Below, in pieces: positions 16,031 to 56,929 of a stretch of DNA of 64,000 nucleotides. The stretch's first letter is position 1. Every line of letters starts with the position of its first letter. This stretch comes from Agathobacter sp. (lineage in GTDB: Bacteria; Bacillota; Clostridia; Lachnospirales; Lachnospiraceae). The position numbers and the translations under genes were made by a program. The DNA lies in assembly GCA_017409825.1 (NCBI GenBank), contig JAFQRZ010000004.1:23940-87939 (forward strand), in the 5' to 3' direction. Under the pieces are notes generated by a model. It was not told where the DNA came from, did not search any database, and saw only the letters and a list, made by a program, of their open reading frames with translations.

Positions 16031-18595
16031 ATGACTTATAACAAGAGTTCAACCAAAAAGCGTATTAAAAATGCGAACTCGAAAAAAACAAAGATAAAAA
16101 ATAAACTCGGACTAACAGGACTGCAGATTGGTCTTATTGCATTCATTGTTGTTGTCGTGATTGTTTGTTCTGCTTTACTTGGCATTGCAAAAGGAATCAT
16201 TGATTCTGCTCCAGACATCTCCAAAATCGACGTAGTACCAACTGGTTTTTCTACTTCCGTTTTGGCAGATGACGGCGTTACAGAAATCACCACATTAGTT
16301 GGTTCTGGTGCCAATCGTGAATATGTAAAATTAGACCGCATTCCAGACCATATGCAGCAAGCGTTTGTTGCAATTGAAGATGAACGTTTCTACGAGCATA
16401 ACGGCATTGATTTGCAGAGTATCGCACGAGCAGGCGTTGCTACCGTACAAAAATTATTGACAGGCAGTGGTAGCATTCAGGGCGGTAGTACCATCACACA
16501 GCAGTTAATCAAAAACAATGTCTTAACCAGCTGGACTGGCGAAAAAAACATGCTCGAAAAGATTCAACGCAAGCTCCAGGAACAGTATCTCGCCTTGAAA
16601 TTAGAAGAACAAATCAATGACAAGGATTGGATTTTAGAAAACTACTTAAATACCATTAACTTGGGTTCTAATACTTTGGGTGTTCAATCTGCAGCCAATA
16701 AATACTTTGGCAAAGACGTATCTGAACTCACACTTTCCGAAAGTGCTGTTATCGCTGGTATTACACAAAATCCTTATGGATACGACCCAATTCGTTTTCC
16801 AGAAAAAAATGCGCAACGACGCGAGCGTGTATTAAATAATATGCTTGAGCAGAAATATATTTCTAAAGCACAATACGATGAAGCCTTAGCCGATCCCGTT
16901 TACGACAGAATCTCATCCTACAACGTAGAAACTACGACTTCCTATAACACTTACTTTGTAGATGCATTAATTGACGATGTTTTGGATGACTTAATCAATA
17001 AAGCGGGGTATACGGAATCGGATGCATATAAAGCGCTTTATCATGGTGGATTAACGATTGTTTCTACTCAAGATTTAAACATTCAAAAAATATGCGACGA
17101 AGAAGTCAATAATGAAAAAAACTATTTTGCTAAACCTAGATATTCGTTTCATATGTCATTCTCTGTAAAAAAAGCCGATGGAAGCACCAAAGCATACACG
17201 CACCTAACCATGCTTTCTTACTATAGAAATAAACAGACTTCCGAATTTAGCATTATTTATCCTACGGAAGACGCATGTTATGATGCTATCAGACAATATC
17301 AGAAAGATATTTTAGAAGAAGGCGATAGTATTGTAGAAGGTACTGAATCCATCCTTATCACGTTACAGCCACAGGTTGCAGCAACAGTTATCGACCAGAG
17401 CACTGGCGAAGTAAAAGCGCTAGTTGGTGGCCGTGGAGACAAGACCGGAAATCGTATTTGGAATCGAGCTACTGACACCAAACGTCAGCCAGGTTCTACA
17501 TTTAAGATTGTATCTTGTTATGCTGCTGCCTTGGATGCTGCTGGAAAAACACTTGCATCCGTACAGGATGACGCCCCATTAAAAGTTGGCGACAAAGAAT
17601 ATAAGAACGATCTTGAGAACGAATTCTATGGTTTAACCACTATGCGCGAAGCCATTCGTCATTCTCATAATATTACAGCGTTAAAATTTGCACAAGAAAT
17701 TGGGATTAATCTCTGCTATGAATATGCTACAAAATTTGGTTTCTCGTCTTTAACAGAAAGCGACAAGACTTTGAGCCTTCCTCTTGGAGGATTAACCACT
17801 GGTGTTACCACTCTTGAACTTGCTTCTGCTTATGCTTCTATTGCAAATGCAGGGGAATATATTGAGCCAAGCTTCTATACGGCCGTATATGACCACGAGG
17901 GAAATCTCATCTTAGATAACACGAAACAAGAACAGCACAGAGTCATTAGCGAAGAAACTGCCTGGTTGTTGACCGAAGCAATGCGAGATGTTATGACGCT
18001 TGGAACTGGTAGAGAAGCTTATTTTGGAAGCACCATGGAACAGGCTGGTAAGTCCGGTACAACTACCGACTGTCGCGACATTCTTTTTGCTGGATATACC
18101 CCATACTACACAACCGTTATTTGGGGCGGTTACGATGACAACACAGGTCAAGTTCCAGAAGAACGTGGATATATACGAGCCATTTGGAAAGCTGCTATGA
18201 AACGTATGCATGAAAATTTGGAATATAAAGATTTTAAGAAGCCATCTTCTATTACCACTGCAGACGTATGTATTATGTCAGGATTATCTCCATTAGAAGG
18301 TGCTTGCGAATTTTGCCAAAAGGGAAATGCAATTTACGAAGAATATTTTGCTATCGGCACAGTTCCAACTGAAACCTGTGACCATCATATCACTTTAGAT
18401 ATTTGTTCCGAGACAGGTATGATAGCAAGTGCGAACTGTCCGGAATCGCAGATTGTAAAAAAAGTATTTATTATTGATGCAGATACTGAAACGATGGATA
18501 AACCATATATTGCAACAGAAGAATTCTTATCCACTACCTGTACGCATCACTCCGAAAGCAAAGCGAACAACTTCACAACCAGCGATGATGACTAG
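16031..18595 (+). CDS. Class A penicillin-binding protein (PBP1-type)
   Basis: Bifunctional peptidoglycan synthase of 854 residues. A basic cytoplasmic tail and a membrane helix (about 33-57) are followed by a GT51 glycosyltransferase domain with EDERFYEHNGID (catalytic Glu near residue 116) and QGGSTITQQLIKN. The transpeptidase domain carries SxxK in QPGSTFKI (near residue 488), the SHN motif (near 543) and KSGTT (near 674). A C-terminal Cys/His-rich extension (about 750-830, with CIMSGLSPLEGACEFC and CDHHITLDIC) is also present. AGGAGG precedes the ATG. It is convergent with glnA and followed by a 34-bp tandem repeat and a conserved-loop hairpin. Confidence 0.96.
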   Translation: MTYNKSSTKKRIKNANSKKTKIKNKLGLTGLQIGLIAFIVVVVIVCSALLGIAKGIIDSAPDISKIDVVPTGFSTSVLADDGVTEITTLVGSGANREYVKLDRIPDHMQQAFVAIEDERFYEHNGIDLQSIARAGVATVQKLLTGSGSIQGGSTITQQLIKNNVLTSWTGEKNMLEKIQRKLQEQYLALKLEEQINDKDWILENYLNTINLGSNTLGVQSAANKYFGKDVSELTLSESAVIAGITQNPYGYDPIRFPEKNAQRRERVLNNMLEQKYISKAQYDEALADPVYDRISSYNVETTTSYNTYFVDALIDDVLDDLINKAGYTESDAYKALYHGGLTIVSTQDLNIQKICDEEVNNEKNYFAKPRYSFHMSFSVKKADGSTKAYTHLTMLSYYRNKQTSEFSIIYPTEDACYDAIRQYQKDILEEGDSIVEGTESILITLQPQVAATVIDQSTGEVKALVGGRGDKTGNRIWNRATDTKRQPGSTFKIVSCYAAALDAAGKTLASVQDDAPLKVGDKEYKNDLENEFYGLTTMREAIRHSHNITALKFAQEIGINLCYEYATKFGFSSLTESDKTLSLPLGGLTTGVTTLELASAYASIANAGEYIEPSFYTAVYDHEGNLILDNTKQEQHRVISEETAWLLTEAMRDVMTLGTGREAYFGSTMEQAGKSGTTTDCRDILFAGYTPYYTTVIWGGYDDNTGQVPEERGYIRAIWKAAMKRMHENLEYKDFKKPSSITTADVCIMSGLSPLEGACEFCQKGNAIYEEYFAIGTVPTETCDHHITLDICSETGMIASANCPESQIVKKVFIIDADTETMDKPYIATEEFLSTTCTHHSESKANNFTTSDDD

Positions 18596-18662
18596 AATCG
18601 TATGGAGCATTTCCTCTTTGAAGCAATGGAATCGTATGGAGCATTTTATTTTTGAAATAATG
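18595..18662. repeat. Two tandem copies of a 34-bp sequence
   Basis: Copies at 18595-18628 and 18629-18662 share 29 of 34 bases and both begin GAATCGTATGGAGCATTT. The array begins at the last base of the PBP stop codon. The frame is not kept open in the PBP reading frame, so it is probably noncoding. Confidence 0.85.
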
Positions 18663-18675
18663 TAAACCAACTAAG

Positions 18676-18744
18676 AAAACCCCTAGAATATAAAATTGGA
18701 AGTCTTATGTCAATACAGCGACAATTTTATATTCTAGGGGTTTT
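18676..18744 (-). other. Long hairpin with conserved apical loop, copy 1
   Basis: A perfect 23-bp stem (18676-18698 with 18722-18744) ends in CCCC/GGGG and A/T tracts. The 23-nt apex (18699-18721) reads, on the minus strand, GCTGTATTGACATAAGAC within TC...TTC. It lies 12 bases after the glnA stop and may end both glnA and the convergent PBP transcript, having short T-runs on both sides. The apex matches two other copies in this window although the stems differ. Confidence 0.85.
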
Positions 18745-18756
18745 CGTATTATTTAA

Positions 18757-20880
18757 TTACACTTCAAAAATCAAATCTCCATACGATGGCATTGGCCACA
18801 TTGACTTGTCGACAATCATTTCCAGCTTATCTACAGGATCACGAAGCTGTTCCATGGCTGCATTCACTTCATCTCTATAATAACGTGCCTGCGCTGCTCC
18901 GCGTTCCATTCGGAAGGCTTTTTCTGTTACATCCTGCAACTTAACCATAGCCTCCTTTGTTTCTTCCAAACACTTTGAAGTTTCCTTCAAAAGAGATATC
19001 TGAACATTTACTGGCGCCTCTGGACACGCAGCTTTTACTGAATTGATACTATCTGCCAAAACCGTCGTATAACGAATGACCGCTGGGACAATCTGCTTGG
19101 TGGCAATATCAATCATCGCTTTCGCCTCAATATTCAGTGTTTTCGCATAGATTTCGTATTCAATTTCCATACGAGATTCCAATTCGCTTCTACTGAATAC
19201 GCCAAATTTTTCAAACAACTCTACCGATGCTGGAGCAACGTATTCTGGAATTGCATCCACCATACATTCCAAATTTGGAAGTCCACGACGTGCCGCCTCT
19301 TCGACCCATTCTTCAGAATATCCATCACCATTAAAAATAATACGTTCATGTGCCTGCGCATACTCCTGAATCAAACTATGCACAGCAGCATCAAAATCTT
19401 CCGCATTTTCTAGTACATCACACGCCTCTGCAAAAGCTTCTGCAACGATAGTATTTAAAATTACATTCGACTGTGCCACAGAATCCTGTGAGCCTACCAT
19501 ACGAAATTCAAATTTATTTCCGGTAAAAGCAAATGGAGACGTACGATTTCTATCTGCTGCATCCTTACGGAAGTCCGGTAATGTTTTTACCCCAGTGGAA
19601 AGCCCTTCCCCTTTAATGCTATGTGTAGCAGCACCTTTTTCCATATACTGTGCCAAAATATCTTCTAACTGTTCTCCAAGATAAACAGAAATAATCGCTG
19701 GAGGTGCTTCATGTGCACCTAAACGGTGATCATTTCCTACATCTGCTGCAGAAGCACGGAGTAAACCAGCATGCTTATCCACCGCTTTTAACACACATGC
19801 TAAAACCAAAAGGAACTGTGCATTCTCATGTGGTTTCTTACCTGGATCCAATAAATTGATTCCATCATCTGTCGTAAGCGACCAGTTATTATGCTTACCA
19901 GAACCATTTACCCCATCAAATGGCTTTTCATGCAGCAGACACTGAAGTCCATGTCTACCTGCAACCTTTTTTAAGGTTTCCATTACGAGTTGATTATGGT
20001 CTACTGCCACATTACATTCTGCATAAATTGGCGCCATCTCATGCTGTGCCGGAGCCGCTTCATTGTGTTCTGTTTTTGAGGTAACTCCAAGCTTCCAAAG
20101 TTCAACGTCTACGTCCTTCATATATGCCGCAATACGTTCACGAATAGAACCGAAATAATGGTCATCCATTTCCTGTCCCTTTGGAGGCATTGCTCCAAAA
20201 AGTGTACGTCCAGTAAATACCAAATCTTTTCTTTTTAGATATTTTTCTCTATCTACAAGGAAGTATTCCTGCTCCGCGCCTACAGAAGGGGTTACCTTCT
20301 TTGATGTGGTATTGCCAAACAAGCGAAGTAAACGAAGTGATTGTTCTCCCACCGCCTGCATAGAACGAAGTAATGGTGTTTTCTGGTCTAATGCTTCACC
20401 TGTATAAGAACAAAATGCTGTAGGGATACAAAGTGTTGCACCACCTGCATCCTGTCGCACAAAGGCAGGGGATGTACAATCCCATGCAGTATAACCTCTC
20501 GCTTCAAATGTTGCACGAAGTCCACCAGATGGGAATGAAGACGCATCCGCTTCCCCTTTGATTAATTCTTTTCCAGAGAAACTCATAAGCACCTTTCCGC
20601 TATCCATCGGTGCAGTAATAAAAGAATCGTGTTTTTCTGCAGTTACACCAGTAAGCGGCTGGAACCAATGTGTAAAATGAGTGGCACCCTTTTCAATCGC
20701 CCATTCCTTCATCTCATGTGCAATAACATCTGCAGTTTCGATATCCAACTCGCCACCCTCTGCAATAATCTGATGAAGTTTACTGTACACTTTCTTTGGA
20801 AGACGTGCCTGCATCACAGAATCATTAAACACGTTCTCTCCAAATATTTCAGATACATTGATTCTCAAATTCTCGTTCAT
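18757..20880 (-). CDS. glnA: Glutamine synthetase type III
   Basis: ATP-dependent synthesis of glutamine from glutamate and ammonia, the main entry of ammonia into metabolism. At 707 residues it fits the type III (GlnN) class rather than the about 450-residue type I. Recognisable blocks include FTHWFQPLTGVTAEKHDSF, AEQEYFLVDREKY, NEAAPAQHEMAPIYAE and VNGSGKHNNWSL, corresponding to the metal and glutamate sites. AAAGGGAAA precedes the ATG. It is monocistronic, preceded by a 176-base noncoding region and followed by the conserved-loop hairpin at 18676-18744. No GlnR or PII gene is adjacent. Confidence 0.97.
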   Translation of the reverse strand: MNENLRINVSEIFGENVFNDSVMQARLPKKVYSKLHQIIAEGGELDIETADVIAHEMKEWAIEKGATHFTHWFQPLTGVTAEKHDSFITAPMDSGKVLMSFSGKELIKGEADASSFPSGGLRATFEARGYTAWDCTSPAFVRQDAGGATLCIPTAFCSYTGEALDQKTPLLRSMQAVGEQSLRLLRLFGNTTSKKVTPSVGAEQEYFLVDREKYLKRKDLVFTGRTLFGAMPPKGQEMDDHYFGSIRERIAAYMKDVDVELWKLGVTSKTEHNEAAPAQHEMAPIYAECNVAVDHNQLVMETLKKVAGRHGLQCLLHEKPFDGVNGSGKHNNWSLTTDDGINLLDPGKKPHENAQFLLVLACVLKAVDKHAGLLRASAADVGNDHRLGAHEAPPAIISVYLGEQLEDILAQYMEKGAATHSIKGEGLSTGVKTLPDFRKDAADRNRTSPFAFTGNKFEFRMVGSQDSVAQSNVILNTIVAEAFAEACDVLENAEDFDAAVHSLIQEYAQAHERIIFNGDGYSEEWVEEAARRGLPNLECMVDAIPEYVAPASVELFEKFGVFSRSELESRMEIEYEIYAKTLNIEAKAMIDIATKQIVPAVIRYTTVLADSINSVKAACPEAPVNVQISLLKETSKCLEETKEAMVKLQDVTEKAFRMERGAAQARYYRDEVNAAMEQLRDPVDKLEMIVDKSMWPMPSYGDLIFEV

Positions 20881-21056
20881 GAATTTCCCTTTCTAAACTA
20901 GTATCCCGCCGAATAAAACCGACTTGACGTTTAAGTATATCTAATAAATATCGTCTTATTATGTATAAAATCTTATCAATTTTATATCGTAAATATACTC
21001 CTTATTCCTCTATCTGTAAAGATAAAATTTGCTGTTTTTTATTTTGCACAAAGTAA

Positions 21057-21131
21057 GAACTCCCCATCTATATATTCATTTAGAAGCCTTACGCCAGTAC
21101 AGCGATAAATGAATATATAGATGGGGAGTTC
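21057..21131 (-). other. Long hairpin with conserved apical loop, copy 2
   Basis: A perfect 26-bp stem (21057-21082 with 21106-21131) carries a 23-nt apex (21083-21105) that reads, on the minus strand, GCTGTACTGGCGTAAGGC within TC...TTC. It lies 35 bases after the fba stop and upstream of glnA. Neither side has a clear T-run, so it is not a standard intrinsic terminator. Confidence 0.87.
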
Positions 21132-21166
21132 GTAGTTTATTCAATACCTAAATCAAACAGCAAATC

Positions 21167-22030
21167 TTATGCTTTGCCAACAGAACCAAAAAGTTCCATT
21201 TTTTCTTTTACAGTTGCTTTGATAGCTTCAGTACCAGGAGCAAGTAATTTACGAGGGTCAAATCCTTTGCCTTCTAAATCTTTACCAGCTTCTACGTATG
21301 TACGTGTAGCTGCAGCAAATGATAACTGACATTCTGTATTTACGTTGATCTTAGCTACGCCAAGGTCGATTGCTTTCTTAATCATTTCTTCTGGGATACC
21401 TGTACCACCATGAAGTACTAATGGCATTGTACCTGTTTTTTCCTGAATAGCATCCAATGTTTCGAAGCTAAGTCCTGCCCAGTTTGCTGGGTATTTACCA
21501 TGGATATTACCGATACCAGCTGCAAGCATATCTACGCCAAGATCAGCGATTGCTTTACATTCATCTGGATCTGCACATTCACCAGCACCTACTACACCAT
21601 CTTCTTCTCCACCGATAGAACCAACTTCAGCTTCGATAGATAATCCTAACTGATGAGCAACTGCTACTAATTCTTTTGTCTTTGCAACGTTTTCTTCAAT
21701 TGAGAAATGTGAGCCGTCAAACATGATTGATGTGAAACCAGCTTTGATACATTTGTAGCATCCGTCGTATGAGCCGTGATCTAAGTGAAGTGCTACAGGA
21801 ACTGTGATTCCAAGTTCTTCATCCATAGCTTTTACCATAGCTGCAACTGTCTTGAAACCTGTCATGTACTTTCCAGCACCTTCAGATACACCAAGAATAA
21901 CTGGAGAGTTTAATTCCTGTGCTGTTAAAAGGATAGCCTTTGTCCATTCTAAGTTGTTGATGTTGAACTGTCCAACTGCATAGTGGCCAGCTTTTGCTTT
22001 GTCGAGCATCTCTTTTGCTGATACTAACAT
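21167..22030 (-). CDS. fba: Class II fructose-1,6-bisphosphate aldolase
   Basis: Zinc-dependent glycolytic aldolase of 287 residues. Zinc ligands are seen in ALHLDHGSYD, in GNIHGKY and in LVLHGGTGIP. The active-site aspartate is in HLDHG, and phosphate-binding glycines follow (GVAKINVNTECQ). AGGAGG precedes the ATG. The gene is alone between the lipid kinase and glnA units, followed by a conserved-loop hairpin, and is presumably highly expressed, as expected for a glycolytic enzyme in a fermentative organism. Confidence 0.98.
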   Translation of the reverse strand: MLVSAKEMLDKAKAGHYAVGQFNINNLEWTKAILLTAQELNSPVILGVSEGAGKYMTGFKTVAAMVKAMDEELGITVPVALHLDHGSYDGCYKCIKAGFTSIMFDGSHFSIEENVAKTKELVAVAHQLGLSIEAEVGSIGGEEDGVVGAGECADPDECKAIADLGVDMLAAGIGNIHGKYPANWAGLSFETLDAIQEKTGTMPLVLHGGTGIPEEMIKKAIDLGVAKINVNTECQLSFAAATRTYVEAGKDLEGKGFDPRKLLAPGTEAIKATVKEKMELFGSVGKA

Positions 22031-43219: not shown

Positions 43220-43234
43220 CTTTTTTATGTAAAT

Positions 43235-43282
43235 AAGAGACCATCTCATATAGACTTTCGCGTCTATATGAGATGGTCTCTT
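43235..43282. terminator. Bidirectional terminator between tRNA-Phe and the DUF6465-like gene
   Basis: A 21-bp perfect stem (43235-43255 with 43262-43282) and 6-nt loop lie between the convergent tRNA and the minus-strand gene that ends at 43303. The T-run is only modest on both sides. Confidence 0.85.
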
Positions 43283-43302
43283 GTTTTCCTATTATGTACT
43301 TC

Positions 43303-54943: not shown

Positions 54944-55651
54944 ATGAGTCAATTATTTGGAATGGACAATGTACTTTCCTCATTAACAGGAAAATACGAA
55001 AACAACGTAAACAAGGAAACTGCAAAAGTAGCAAACGGCAAAAACAGCATTGGTAACCCAAAGCTAACAGATGCTGCTTCCAAATACTATGAAGAATTAA
55101 AAGCAAAATATGGCGATATGGAATTCATCCTGGTAGATGACGAACATATCAATACTGCAAAAGAACAGTCTTCTAACATCACCTCTGATAAGAGTATGCT
55201 TGTACTTATCAGCGAATCTGAATTAGAAGAAATGGCTGTGAATGAAGATGTCCGCAAGAAAAACGAAGCCTTCATCGAAGACGCAAAGGCTCAGATGCCA
55301 GATATGCTGAAACGATTAAACGAATCTGGTACAGAAATCAAATCCTTCGGCATTGAAATCAAAGATGGTACTGCTTCTTACTTCGCTGTTTTAGACAAAT
55401 CTGCAGCAGCTCAGAAAGAACGTATCGAAGCGAAACAGGAAGCGAATCGTGCCGAGAAAAAAGCAGATGCCAAGGAAGCTAACGTTGCGAAAACAAAACC
55501 GAACAAGAAAGAAGATTTGACTACCATAAGCGCTGGTAGCATTGAAGAATTAATCAAAAAACTCCAGTCTGCATCTTATGAAGCAATGGCTGACAATGTT
55601 CAGACAGAGCAGGAAAAGATGGTGGGACAGTCCTTTGATTTTTCGATTTAA
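54944..55651 (+). CDS. Helical hypothetical protein (DUF6033-like)
   Basis: 235 residues. The N-terminal two thirds have a mixed fold (KYGDMEFILVDDEHINTAKEQ, LISESELEEMAVNED, IKSFGIEIKDGTASYFAVL). Residues about 160-195 are Lys/Glu/Ala-rich coiled coil (KQEANRAEKKADAKEAN). The N-terminus MSQLFGMDNVLSSLTG is not a signal peptide. From memory it resembles DUF6033 proteins of Lachnospiraceae; their role is unknown. AGGAGG lies five bases before the ATG. It is the only plus-strand gene around and ends at a conserved-loop hairpin. Confidence 0.68.
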   Translation: MSQLFGMDNVLSSLTGKYENNVNKETAKVANGKNSIGNPKLTDAASKYYEELKAKYGDMEFILVDDEHINTAKEQSSNITSDKSMLVLISESELEEMAVNEDVRKKNEAFIEDAKAQMPDMLKRLNESGTEIKSFGIEIKDGTASYFAVLDKSAAAQKERIEAKQEANRAEKKADAKEANVAKTKPNKKEDLTTISAGSIEELIKKLQSASYEAMADNVQTEQEKMVGQSFDFSI

Positions 55652-55665
55652 ATTATAAGAATTAC

Positions 55666-55735
55666 AAAACCCCCTCATATATAAAATTGTTGCTTTACTG
55701 ACGTAAGGCTTCCAATTTCATATATGAGGGGTTTT
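55666..55735 (+). other. Long hairpin with conserved apical loop, copy 3
   Basis: Arms 55666-55689 and 55713-55735 pair over about 22 bases with one bulge and one A-C mismatch. The 23-nt apex (55690-55712) contains GCTTTACTGACGTAAGGC within TT...TTC. It lies 14 bases after the stop of the upstream plus-strand gene and 15 bases before the aldo/keto reductase stop. It is the same apex as in copies 1 and 2, in the same sense relative to the upstream gene. Confidence 0.85.
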
Positions 55736-55750
55736 CTTTCATTTTATAAT

Positions 55751-56929
55751 TTAATATCTAATAAACAGCGGTACTACTTTCTTCGCGACCTTATAAATAG
55801 GTCCCTCTAATACCTTCTGCGCATTCTTTAATTCTTCACGAATACGAATTCCCTGCGGGCAGTGTTTCTCACATTTTCCACAGCCAATGCAGTTAGATAT
55901 CGATGTGGCATCTTTACGAAAAACAGAGCTGCGTAAATGCTCATACCATGCCTCTTGTTTTCCATCGACTGCAGATACGTTGTAGGCCGCAAACGCCCCA
56001 GGAATATCTACATTCATCGGGCATGGCATACAATAGCCGCACCCCGTACAACCAACCTTCATTTTGGAATTAATAGACTCTACTACCTGAGCAAGTAATA
56101 CATTGTCCTCTTCTGTAAATTCACCCACCTGACATTCACTTGCAACGCGGGCATTTTCTTCTAACATTTCCATCGAGTTCATGCCCGAAAGCACGCAGGT
56201 CACCTCTGGCTGATTCCACAACCAACGAAATGCCCACTCTGCTGGCGAATACTTCTTTGGATGCTCTGCAAAAAGCTTCTTCGCTTTTTCTGGAAGATTA
56301 CTTACCAGCTTGCCACCACGAAGCGGTTCCATGATGATAACCGGAAGCCCTTTGGCCGCAGCATGATATAATCCTTTTCTTCCTGCCTGTGCATTTTCAT
56401 CTAAATAGTTGTACTGAATCTGACAAAAATCCCAGTCATACGCGTCCACAACTTTACAAAAACTCTCTGAATTCCCGTGATAGGAGAACCCAATCTGGCG
56501 AATAGCTCCGCTTTCTTTTTTCTGGCGAATCCACTCCAAAATCCCCATATCCACAAGCTTTTCCCATGTCTTCACATCATTTAACATGTGCATAAGATAG
56601 TAGTCGATATAGTCCGTACGAAGTCGGCTAAGTTCCTCTTGAAAACACTTCTCAATACTTTCCATGGAATTCATGAGATAATGAGGAAGTTTTGTAGCAA
56701 TATTAATTTTTTCACGTATACCATTCTTCTCAAAAATCTTTCCAATAGCAGCTTCACTTCCACCATAGATATAGGCGGTGTCATAATAGTTCACACCCAT
56801 CTTACAAGCTGCCATCAGTTCCTTTTCAGCTTTGTCCATATCGATAGCACCTGCCGTTTTCGTAAAACGCATACAGCCATAGCCTAACATTGATATTTTA
56901 TTTCCATATTTATCAGTACGATATTGCAT
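55751..56929 (-). CDS. Aldo/keto reductase with 2x[4Fe-4S] C-terminus
   Basis: 392 residues. The N-terminal TIM barrel (about 1-290) carries the AKR tetrad: aspartate and tyrosine in NYYDTAYIYGGSE, lysine in IATKLP, and histidine in YYLMHMLND. The C-terminus has two ferredoxin motifs, CTGCGYCMPCPMNVDIPG and CIGCGKCEKHCPQGIRI. It probably reduces carbonyls while exchanging electrons with ferredoxin or flavodoxin. AAGGAG precedes the ATG. It stands alone and is common in anaerobic Firmicutes. The physiological substrate is not known. Confidence 0.93.
   Translation of the reverse strand: MQYRTDKYGNKISMLGYGCMRFTKTAGAIDMDKAEKELMAACKMGVNYYDTAYIYGGSEAAIGKIFEKNGIREKINIATKLPHYLMNSMESIEKCFQEELSRLRTDYIDYYLMHMLNDVKTWEKLVDMGILEWIRQKKESGAIRQIGFSYHGNSESFCKVVDAYDWDFCQIQYNYLDENAQAGRKGLYHAAAKGLPVIIMEPLRGGKLVSNLPEKAKKLFAEHPKKYSPAEWAFRWLWNQPEVTCVLSGMNSMEMLEENARVASECQVGEFTEEDNVLLAQVVESINSKMKVGCTGCGYCMPCPMNVDIPGAFAAYNVSAVDGKQEAWYEHLRSSVFRKDATSISNCIGCGKCEKHCPQGIRIREELKNAQKVLEGPIYKVAKKVVPLFIRY

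Follow-up and report, generated by a model that had tools for sequence, protein, structure and literature searches.

The 64,000-nucleotide stretch of Agathobacter sp. considered here (GenBank assembly GCA_017409825.1, contig JAFQRZ010000004.1; termed the window) contains three long hairpins, each located 3′ of a gene and in its sense. Copy 1 follows glnA, copy 2 follows fba, and copy 3 follows a DUF6033 gene (Table 1). An earlier note on this DNA had described two of them as perfect arms of 23 and 26 bp around a 23-nt apex. These are confirmed, as are the apex sequences, which in gene sense read TCGCTGTATTGACATAAGACTTC in copy 1 and TCGCTGTACTGGCGTAAGGCTTC in copy 2. The third copy, with an imperfect stem, was located as well. 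Each hairpin lies in the middle of a longer inverted repeat with imperfect arms, which at copies 1 and 2 extends into the upstream gene. The family to which the hairpins belong is real and is more unusual than the earlier note held, because the ends of host genes are mirrored beyond them. This inverted gene-end copy was missed by that note, together with a second apex type and a shared motif at the base of the stem.

The hairpins of the window and the small-apex family

The sense strands of copies 1, 2, and 3 fold with z-scores of −9.4, −12.8, and −7.0, and none of 200 shuffles was as stable. Three apex matches lie in the window against 0.36 expected, a number reached in 1 of 100 shuffles. A simple terminator scan, with loops limited to at most 8 nt, reported none at copies 1 and 2, and the tandem pair that holds the inverted glnA end was unreported by Tandem Repeats Finder. 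The window also carries, at 43226–43291 and directly after a tRNA gene, a 25-pair hairpin (24 Watson–Crick pairs and one G-T) with a 6-nt loop and without the family apex.

Table 1. Hairpins of the window, their apices, the genes upstream of them, and the mirrored gene ends.
Feature	Position	Strand	Details
Copy 1, long hairpin 3′ of glnA in sense	18676–18744	−	23-bp perfect arms, 23-nt apex
Copy 1, conserved apex	18699–18721	−	
glnA, upstream of copy 1	18757–20880	−	Pfam Gln-synt_C and Gln-synt_C-ter
glnA coding end, mirrored beyond copy 1	18763–18794	−	
Inverted copy of glnA coding end	18624–18656	+	33 nt, 88%
Tandem pair of ~34-nt units holding the inverted glnA end, located right at the convergent gene's stop	18595–18662	+	85%
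Copy 2, long hairpin 3′ of fba in sense	21057–21131	−	26-bp perfect arms, 23-nt apex
Copy 2, conserved apex	21083–21105	−	
fba, upstream of copy 2	21167–22030	−	class II fructose-bisphosphate aldolase
fba end with stop codon and start of 3′ untranslated region, mirrored beyond copy 2	21155–21184	−	
Inverted copy of fba end	21009–21037	+	30 nt, 80%
Copy 3, long imperfect hairpin 3′ of DUF6033 gene in sense	55667–55734	+	apex 55690–55712
Outer inverted repeat around copy 3	55648–55754	.	arms 55648–55689 and 55713–55754, 42 nt, 81%

In the genome of the window (G000), an apex pattern allowing up to three mismatches occurs at 35 places, 15 forward and 20 reverse, and the reversed-pattern control gave 0. 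A relatives search of 60 genomes found 17 further places in a sister species (G007), and lone apex matches without a stem in G017, G019, and G034. Exact scanning of genome contigs, which may omit the window's own record, gave matches only at the G007 positions (Agathobacter sp. RGIG4703, a metagenome-assembled genome, MAG, from roe deer rectum). One of the 35 places in G000 is a half copy in tandem with another (element 1501–1523 of L020, minus strand, with the half copy alongside; C15:112962–113023). By eye, the orphan 3′ arm at L020 retains the stem sequence of the G007 orthologue L046, whereas in the full copy both paired arms have changed in concert.

A covariance-model search of the genome and its relatives, as the earlier note had proposed, gave matches in 2 of the 62 genomes of the genus searched, with a few divergent copies in addition. 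The model (R1) and the alignment (A2) were built on 44 of 51 copies, with seven that have class II stems or irregular arms excluded. Raw counts from R1 (46 and 21) are too high, as some hairpins were matched on the opposite strand too.

The position of the copies is strongly biased. The nearest upstream gene is in sense for 29 of 33 G000 copies (p = 1.1e-5), gene orientation being taken from longest open reading frame (ORF) calls by our own script and not from annotation, and 18 of these lie between convergent genes. Most small-apex units are within about 70 nt of the stop codon. The upstream genes, 30 of the 34 listed having been scanned, include glnA, fba, carB, purC, spoIVA, a SASP spore protein, fliD, cheR, a response regulator, rplT, and DUF proteins, and have no common function. 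A link to one metabolic gene class is rejected by this variety, and the idea that the hairpins mark strongly expressed metabolic genes is unsupported for genes that range from glnA and fba to spoIVA, fliD, rplT, and DUF genes. Within the apex, the paired T-A to C-G exchange reported for the inner stem is real, the pair being UA in 22 of the 44 copies, CG in 18, UG in 1, and unpaired in 3. The TGRC tetraloop proposed to cap this stem is not universal, with TAGC, TTGC, TCGC, TGTC, and TTAC occurring as well.

A large apex on the same base

Of 22 further gene ends compared (18 in G000 and 4 in G007), 17 were matched to an orthologue in the other species, and none was found for L009, L015, L032, the third window copy, and L051. 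The small apex is present in both species at a single site (L012/L154). At four sites (L014/L140, L011/L142, L005/L144, and L043/L161), one species has the small apex and the other a large apex of ~100 nt, on a stem that differs and a base motif that is the same. The apex is lost at one site (L016/L159), and the element is absent in one species at 11 (L002, L004, L006, L018, L019, L024, L025, L027, L029, L042, and L121), several element-free sites holding an ordinary-looking terminator hairpin instead. The base motif shared in this lineage (TCTAAATACTACGAA / TTCTTACTTTTTGGAA) bears a small, a large, or no apex, and TCTAAATACTACGAAA, allowing up to two mismatches, has 39 occurrences in G000 and the reversed controls 12. 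Another repeated 3′ sequence, about GGGCTGTCGCAAA...GACGCCCTTTCTTCATG, is found at several G007 and G000 gene ends (L146, L158, L194, and L206).

In the large apex, loops and junctions are conserved (CTAAnYTCR / YTCRYTAAG, ACACG-CTTTCGCTC) and stems are variable. Derivation of the small apex from it by deletion is statistically unsupported, with 367 of 5000 shuffles as good. A known Rfam class is rejected for either apex. For the small apex, the window gave matches at the gathering threshold to tRNAs only, and at relaxed E-values its copies matched eukaryotic microRNA and other families, all below cut-offs. No match was found for the large apex in L140, L142, L144, L161, L163, L175, and L178–L181, while L165, L169, and L171 yielded a match to cspA that lies outside the element, plus a single hit below threshold.

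Scored with a looser pattern and a model (R2), a first and more rigid pattern having been dropped, the large apex extends well beyond this lineage. R2 has matches in 15 of 62 genus genomes and in 55 of 150 Lachnospiraceae genomes (one per genus), counts that rest mostly on sequence as the model has 16 base pairs; its per-genome copy numbers are to be read as "at least". The contigs C1, C6, C8, C15, C16, C23, and C33 of G000 have ends several of which lie in or beside large elements, so that the number of large copies may be underestimated. Where an upstream gene was called, large copies are in its sense in 17 of 21 cases in G000 and in 12 of 22 in G017, the latter being no bias.

Signs of mobility come from G132, a genome of another Lachnospiraceae genus, where each of eight loci (L287–L294) has two large elements facing each other. 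Most of the loci share a unit that is ~600 bp long, is 74–88% alike in full-length matches (L291 matches only piecewise), and occurs in both orientations with sharp edges. No ORF of 90 or more amino acids was called inside six of the eight units. By eye the units have imperfect inverted ends, and no clear target duplication was seen. They look like a non-autonomous mobile element resembling miniature inverted-repeat transposable elements (MITEs). Many copies with defined edges at unrelated sites are thus on record, as unit edges in G132 and as the common base in G000, and a 79-bp class II copy lies behind unlike genes. An 8-kb stretch present twice in G000 at 100% identity (L124:1–8066 on C31 and L125:1–8066 on C34) has three class II hairpins (AAGGAATATAATGG stem) after genes, two behind similar genes and one behind an unlike gene. 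Among the options of the earlier note, a hairpin-mobilised repeat comes closest, with large-apex relatives dispersed in Lachnospiraceae and the sharp-edged units of G132. Carriage by phages or plasmids is rejected, the sole viral match being without a stem; the large core gave no exact-pattern match in viral contigs, and one G017 copy gave no blastn match in phages or plasmids. The persistence of apex-less copies on the same base suggests that the apex matters for spread rather than retention, and it was probably the structure that the mobilising machinery recognised, without being needed for retention.

Mirrored gene ends and matched stems

In many elements, the sequence beyond the base on the far side repeats the near flank in inverted form, and this near flank is the end of the host gene. 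Flanks were compared for 54 elements (31 small and 23 large), 24 of 78 having been dropped for want of two recognisable base motifs. For 45-nt flanks, the mean score is 16.1 when matched and 7.5 when mismatched, 33 of the 54 elements score above the mismatched 99th percentile, and no mean of 5000 permutations is above 8.9. When flanks of 150 nt were compared, 38 of the 54 elements scored at least 15, as did 3 of 154 mismatched pairs. These 38 mirrors are 37 nt long in the median, with 82% identity, and their median starting points lie 5 and 4 nt beyond the base. In 30 of them the mirrored stretch takes in 6 or more coding nt, with a maximum of 93 nt. The reverse-complement copy of an adjacent stretch that marks a template switch is found, except at copy 3.

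The mirrors are concentrated at gene ends that bear an element, also when coding sequence alone is considered. Using the last 60 coding nt, a score of at least 15 is reached by 25 of 64 element-bearing gene ends and by 1 of 94 ends without an element (mismatched pairs, 4/190 with and 2/278 without an element). At a score of at least 13, the counts are 33/64 and 4/94. When the 25 nt after the stop codon are included, a span that can take in base or stem, they become 52/64 and 3/94 (Fisher p = 3e-26). One of these three "element-free" ends carries an apex-less hairpin on the same base (L185), and another carries a 26-bp hairpin with an apparent large-apex remnant (L001:2424). It is unlikely that the host-coding mirror is part of a mobile unit; it appears to be copied locally. 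In G024 and G063, 5 of 8 sense-side gene ends score at least 15, compared to 0 of 9 on the other side; an earlier setting of the compared spans in G024, G063, and G079, placed too far out (1/8, 0/4, and 1/5 at this score), is superseded. At L012 and L017 of G000, the mirror seems by eye to extend into the second of two convergent genes, which would give the pair C-terminal codons in common.

Chance is rejected as the origin of these patterns by the shuffle, reversed-pattern, and mismatched-flank controls. An artefact of a single assembly is likewise rejected, as a second MAG carries the family at orthologous sites and the mirrors have decayed.

The stems of the hairpins are almost perfectly matched. 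Over the first 17 stem pairs of 51 copies (15 pairs in one copy), 853 of 865 cells are Watson–Crick, 9 are A-C, 2 are G-T, and 1 is other. The sequence of the middle of the stem varies between copies with pairing kept. In the 22-pair outer helix of A2 (44 copies), 98.3% of cells are paired and 16 of 968 unpaired; relative to the commonest pair, 306 cells have changed on both sides and 0 on one side to another standard pair. Pairing over the full structure is 98.1%, compared with 48.8% at most when it is slid, and no shuffle equals the pairing or the covariation score.

Orthologous copies show the same joint change. At 13 sites compared between G000 and G007, paired by flanking DNA and counted over a fixed stem length, 232 stem pairs are the same in both species, 50 have both partners changed, 6 have one partner changed, and 12 represent gains or losses of pairing. 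Of the two-sided differences, 46 are from Watson–Crick to Watson–Crick, 2 are to G-T, and 2 are from a mismatch. Arithmetic on these counts gives an expectation of about 10 two-sided and 87 one-sided differences under independent change at the same rate. A trimmed count, which ends the stem at the first unbridged mismatch and flatters pairing (1240/1257 Watson–Crick; 42 two-sided and 2 one-sided), has transversions at 22 of 40 Watson–Crick to Watson–Crick changes, and such changes cannot pass through G-U. Many copies with paired changes, mostly 3′ of genes in one sense, had been named in the earlier note as what would support its conserved element, and such copies are what the 35 places, the 50 two-sided against 6 one-sided differences, and the 29 of 33 sense positions amount to. 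In three G017 copies (L250, L255, and L260), the bulge of most G017 stems inspected is gone by eye and the arms are complementary there, as copying between arms would leave them.

Origin of the hairpins and relation to known systems

On balance, the hairpins are probably settled MITE-like elements behind stop codons, in which fold-back copying made the mirrors and helps to match the stems, and which now are probable terminators. The unit would consist of a conserved folded apex (the 23-nt small or the ~100-nt large one), a long stem, and the shared base motif of this lineage. A folded strand would serve as its own primer or template, with the polymerase passing the base of the hairpin and copying the gene end inverted onto the far side, as the mirrored flanks suggest. 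If a strand folded back at the hairpin so that its 3′ end came to lie at the far foot, synthesis from that end would reproduce the gene end in the observed orientation. Copying from arm to arm, along with selection on the hairpin, would keep drifting arms complementary, which the two-sided changes and near-strict Watson–Crick pairing point to. According to Monttinen and Loytynoja (PMC8794818), an intra-strand template switch can create hairpins and repair stem pairing. Gene position, the GC-rich lower stem, the T-rich 3′ side, and the ordinary-looking terminators at element-free sites suggest a terminator or protective role, and the hairpin probably serves the upstream gene as a terminator or mRNA 3′-end structure.

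Several observations weigh against this origin. The identity of the mirrors has dropped to about 82%, whereas the inner stem remains near 99% Watson–Crick, and the base retains conserved mismatches that arm copying should remove; selection on the inner hairpin must therefore share in keeping the stem. Ten other long hairpins of G000 are also poor in G-T (5 of 164 cells), so that the scarcity of G-U is only partly special; an alternative control of 108 T-run hairpins, mostly chance folds in coding DNA, is superseded by these ten. No scored mirror is present at 16 of 54 elements, none in coding sequence alone at 39 of 64 element-bearing gene ends, and no significant one at copy 3 (score 9). Mismatched pairs score at least 15 in 6 of 84 cases in G024 (0 of 36 in G063). 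No mirror was found among 8 in G079 nor among 22 in the flank test of G017, and mirroring is thus not a property of the whole family; the gene-end test of G017 (7/32 matched against 62/956 mismatched at a score of at least 15) gives a mild excess unconfirmed by the flank test. For the terminator part, the 3′ T-run is interrupted (TTCTTACTTT). For mobility, Y1_Tnp (PF01797) has 0 matches in G000 against 5 of 14 control genomes, a mobilising enzyme was not identified with only Y1 and RVT_1 sought, and this lineage yielded no clean pair of empty and filled sites showing a target duplication.

Among other explanations, structured RNA under selection only, with an apex that binds protein or RNA at mRNA 3′ ends and a stem kept by ordinary compensatory evolution, survives best and is unlikely. 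It would account for the conserved apex with its covarying inner pair (UA 22 and CG 18 of 44), the sense 3′ position, and retention at 14 orthologous sites. However, one-sided intermediates are few (6 against 50 two-sided) and double transversions many (22/40), and cells outside Watson–Crick pairing are not enriched in G-T (2) over A-C (9), so that RNA wobble is not favoured. Copies without an apex or with a swapped apex at the same site also count against it, and the mirrored gene ends are left unexplained.

It is decidedly unlikely that the mirrors are of retro-type, in which a 3′ hairpin of the mRNA primes its own reverse transcription of the gene end and the resulting cDNA enters the chromosome by recombination. 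Mirrors do begin near the base, where a terminated mRNA would end, and on the sense side, and G000 has two RVT_1 matches. In G007, G024, and G063, which bear mirrors but are incomplete MAGs (71, 58, and 84%), no RVT_1 match was found; with three of four mirror-bearing genomes lacking a match, incomplete as they are, reverse transcription becomes the less likely version. Ordinary long intrinsic terminators, with an apex by common descent and no special copying, would fit the position, the GC-rich lower stem, the T-rich 3′ side, and the finding that several orthologous sites lacking an element carry terminators of ordinary appearance, but are highly improbable given an apex and base common to copies behind unlike genes, a large apex dispersed family-wide, and mirrors concentrated at element-bearing ends, and are disfavoured by both the flank and the coding-only mirror tests.

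Fold-back copying at settled elements may be taken one step further, to a version that is possible but doubtful. Here a mobile lineage would insert behind stop codons and complete its insertion by self-primed fold-back synthesis, which would invert the 3′ end of the host gene, coding sequence included, and thereby build and repair long matched hairpin terminators, the stem and apex being exchangeable in the old slot.

The family shares features with several known systems. REP/BIME repeats, associated with RAYT (Y1) transposases, are likewise dispersed extragenic hairpins, often at 3′ ends, and REP copies share a stem sequence. The present family, in contrast, has long and unlike stems around a common apex. 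A Y1/REP origin and membership of the REP/RAYT class are rejected, as no Y1_Tnp match is present in G000 and the stem is not common to copies.

MITEs and other non-autonomous dispersed bacterial repeats, such as BOX and RUP of pneumococcus (PMC3049150), are likewise short, non-coding, multi-copy, intergenic, and foldable. Unlike MITEs, the present stems differ between copies yet are complementary, the copies are sense-biased behind stop codons, and a host gene end is inverted. The ~600-bp relatives in G132 are likewise sharp-edged, while a transposase and target duplication were not found in the present family. With neither an enzyme (Y1 and RVT_1 being those sought) nor a clear target duplication to place them among MITEs proper, the elements are best termed MITE-like.

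Template switching, or quasipalindrome mutagenesis, likewise yields reverse-complement copies and restores stem pairing in single events, as PMC8794818 describes; other papers on the process include PMC7202029 and PMC8604942. It is described as a general mutation mechanism; in the present case, a single element family bears its marks repeatedly, and they extend into host genes. Intrinsic terminators are likewise hairpins a few tens of nt after the stop codon and GC-rich near the base, whereas the present elements have a stem of ~25 bp, a structured apex, an interrupted T-run, and an apex and base of common ancestry. No description of this repeat family was found in the open-access literature searched.

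The origin of long matched RNA stems, and of the joint change of pairing partners, is an old question for which template switching has been proposed (PMC8794818). The hairpins offer dozens of replicate loci in related genomes in which the copied template, the gene end, is still readable, and this makes the mechanism datable and testable. They also constitute a structured repeat family that is spread over a major family of gut bacteria and has no Rfam match. Such elements would also provide a route by which a mobile hairpin may take over the 3′ end of a gene.

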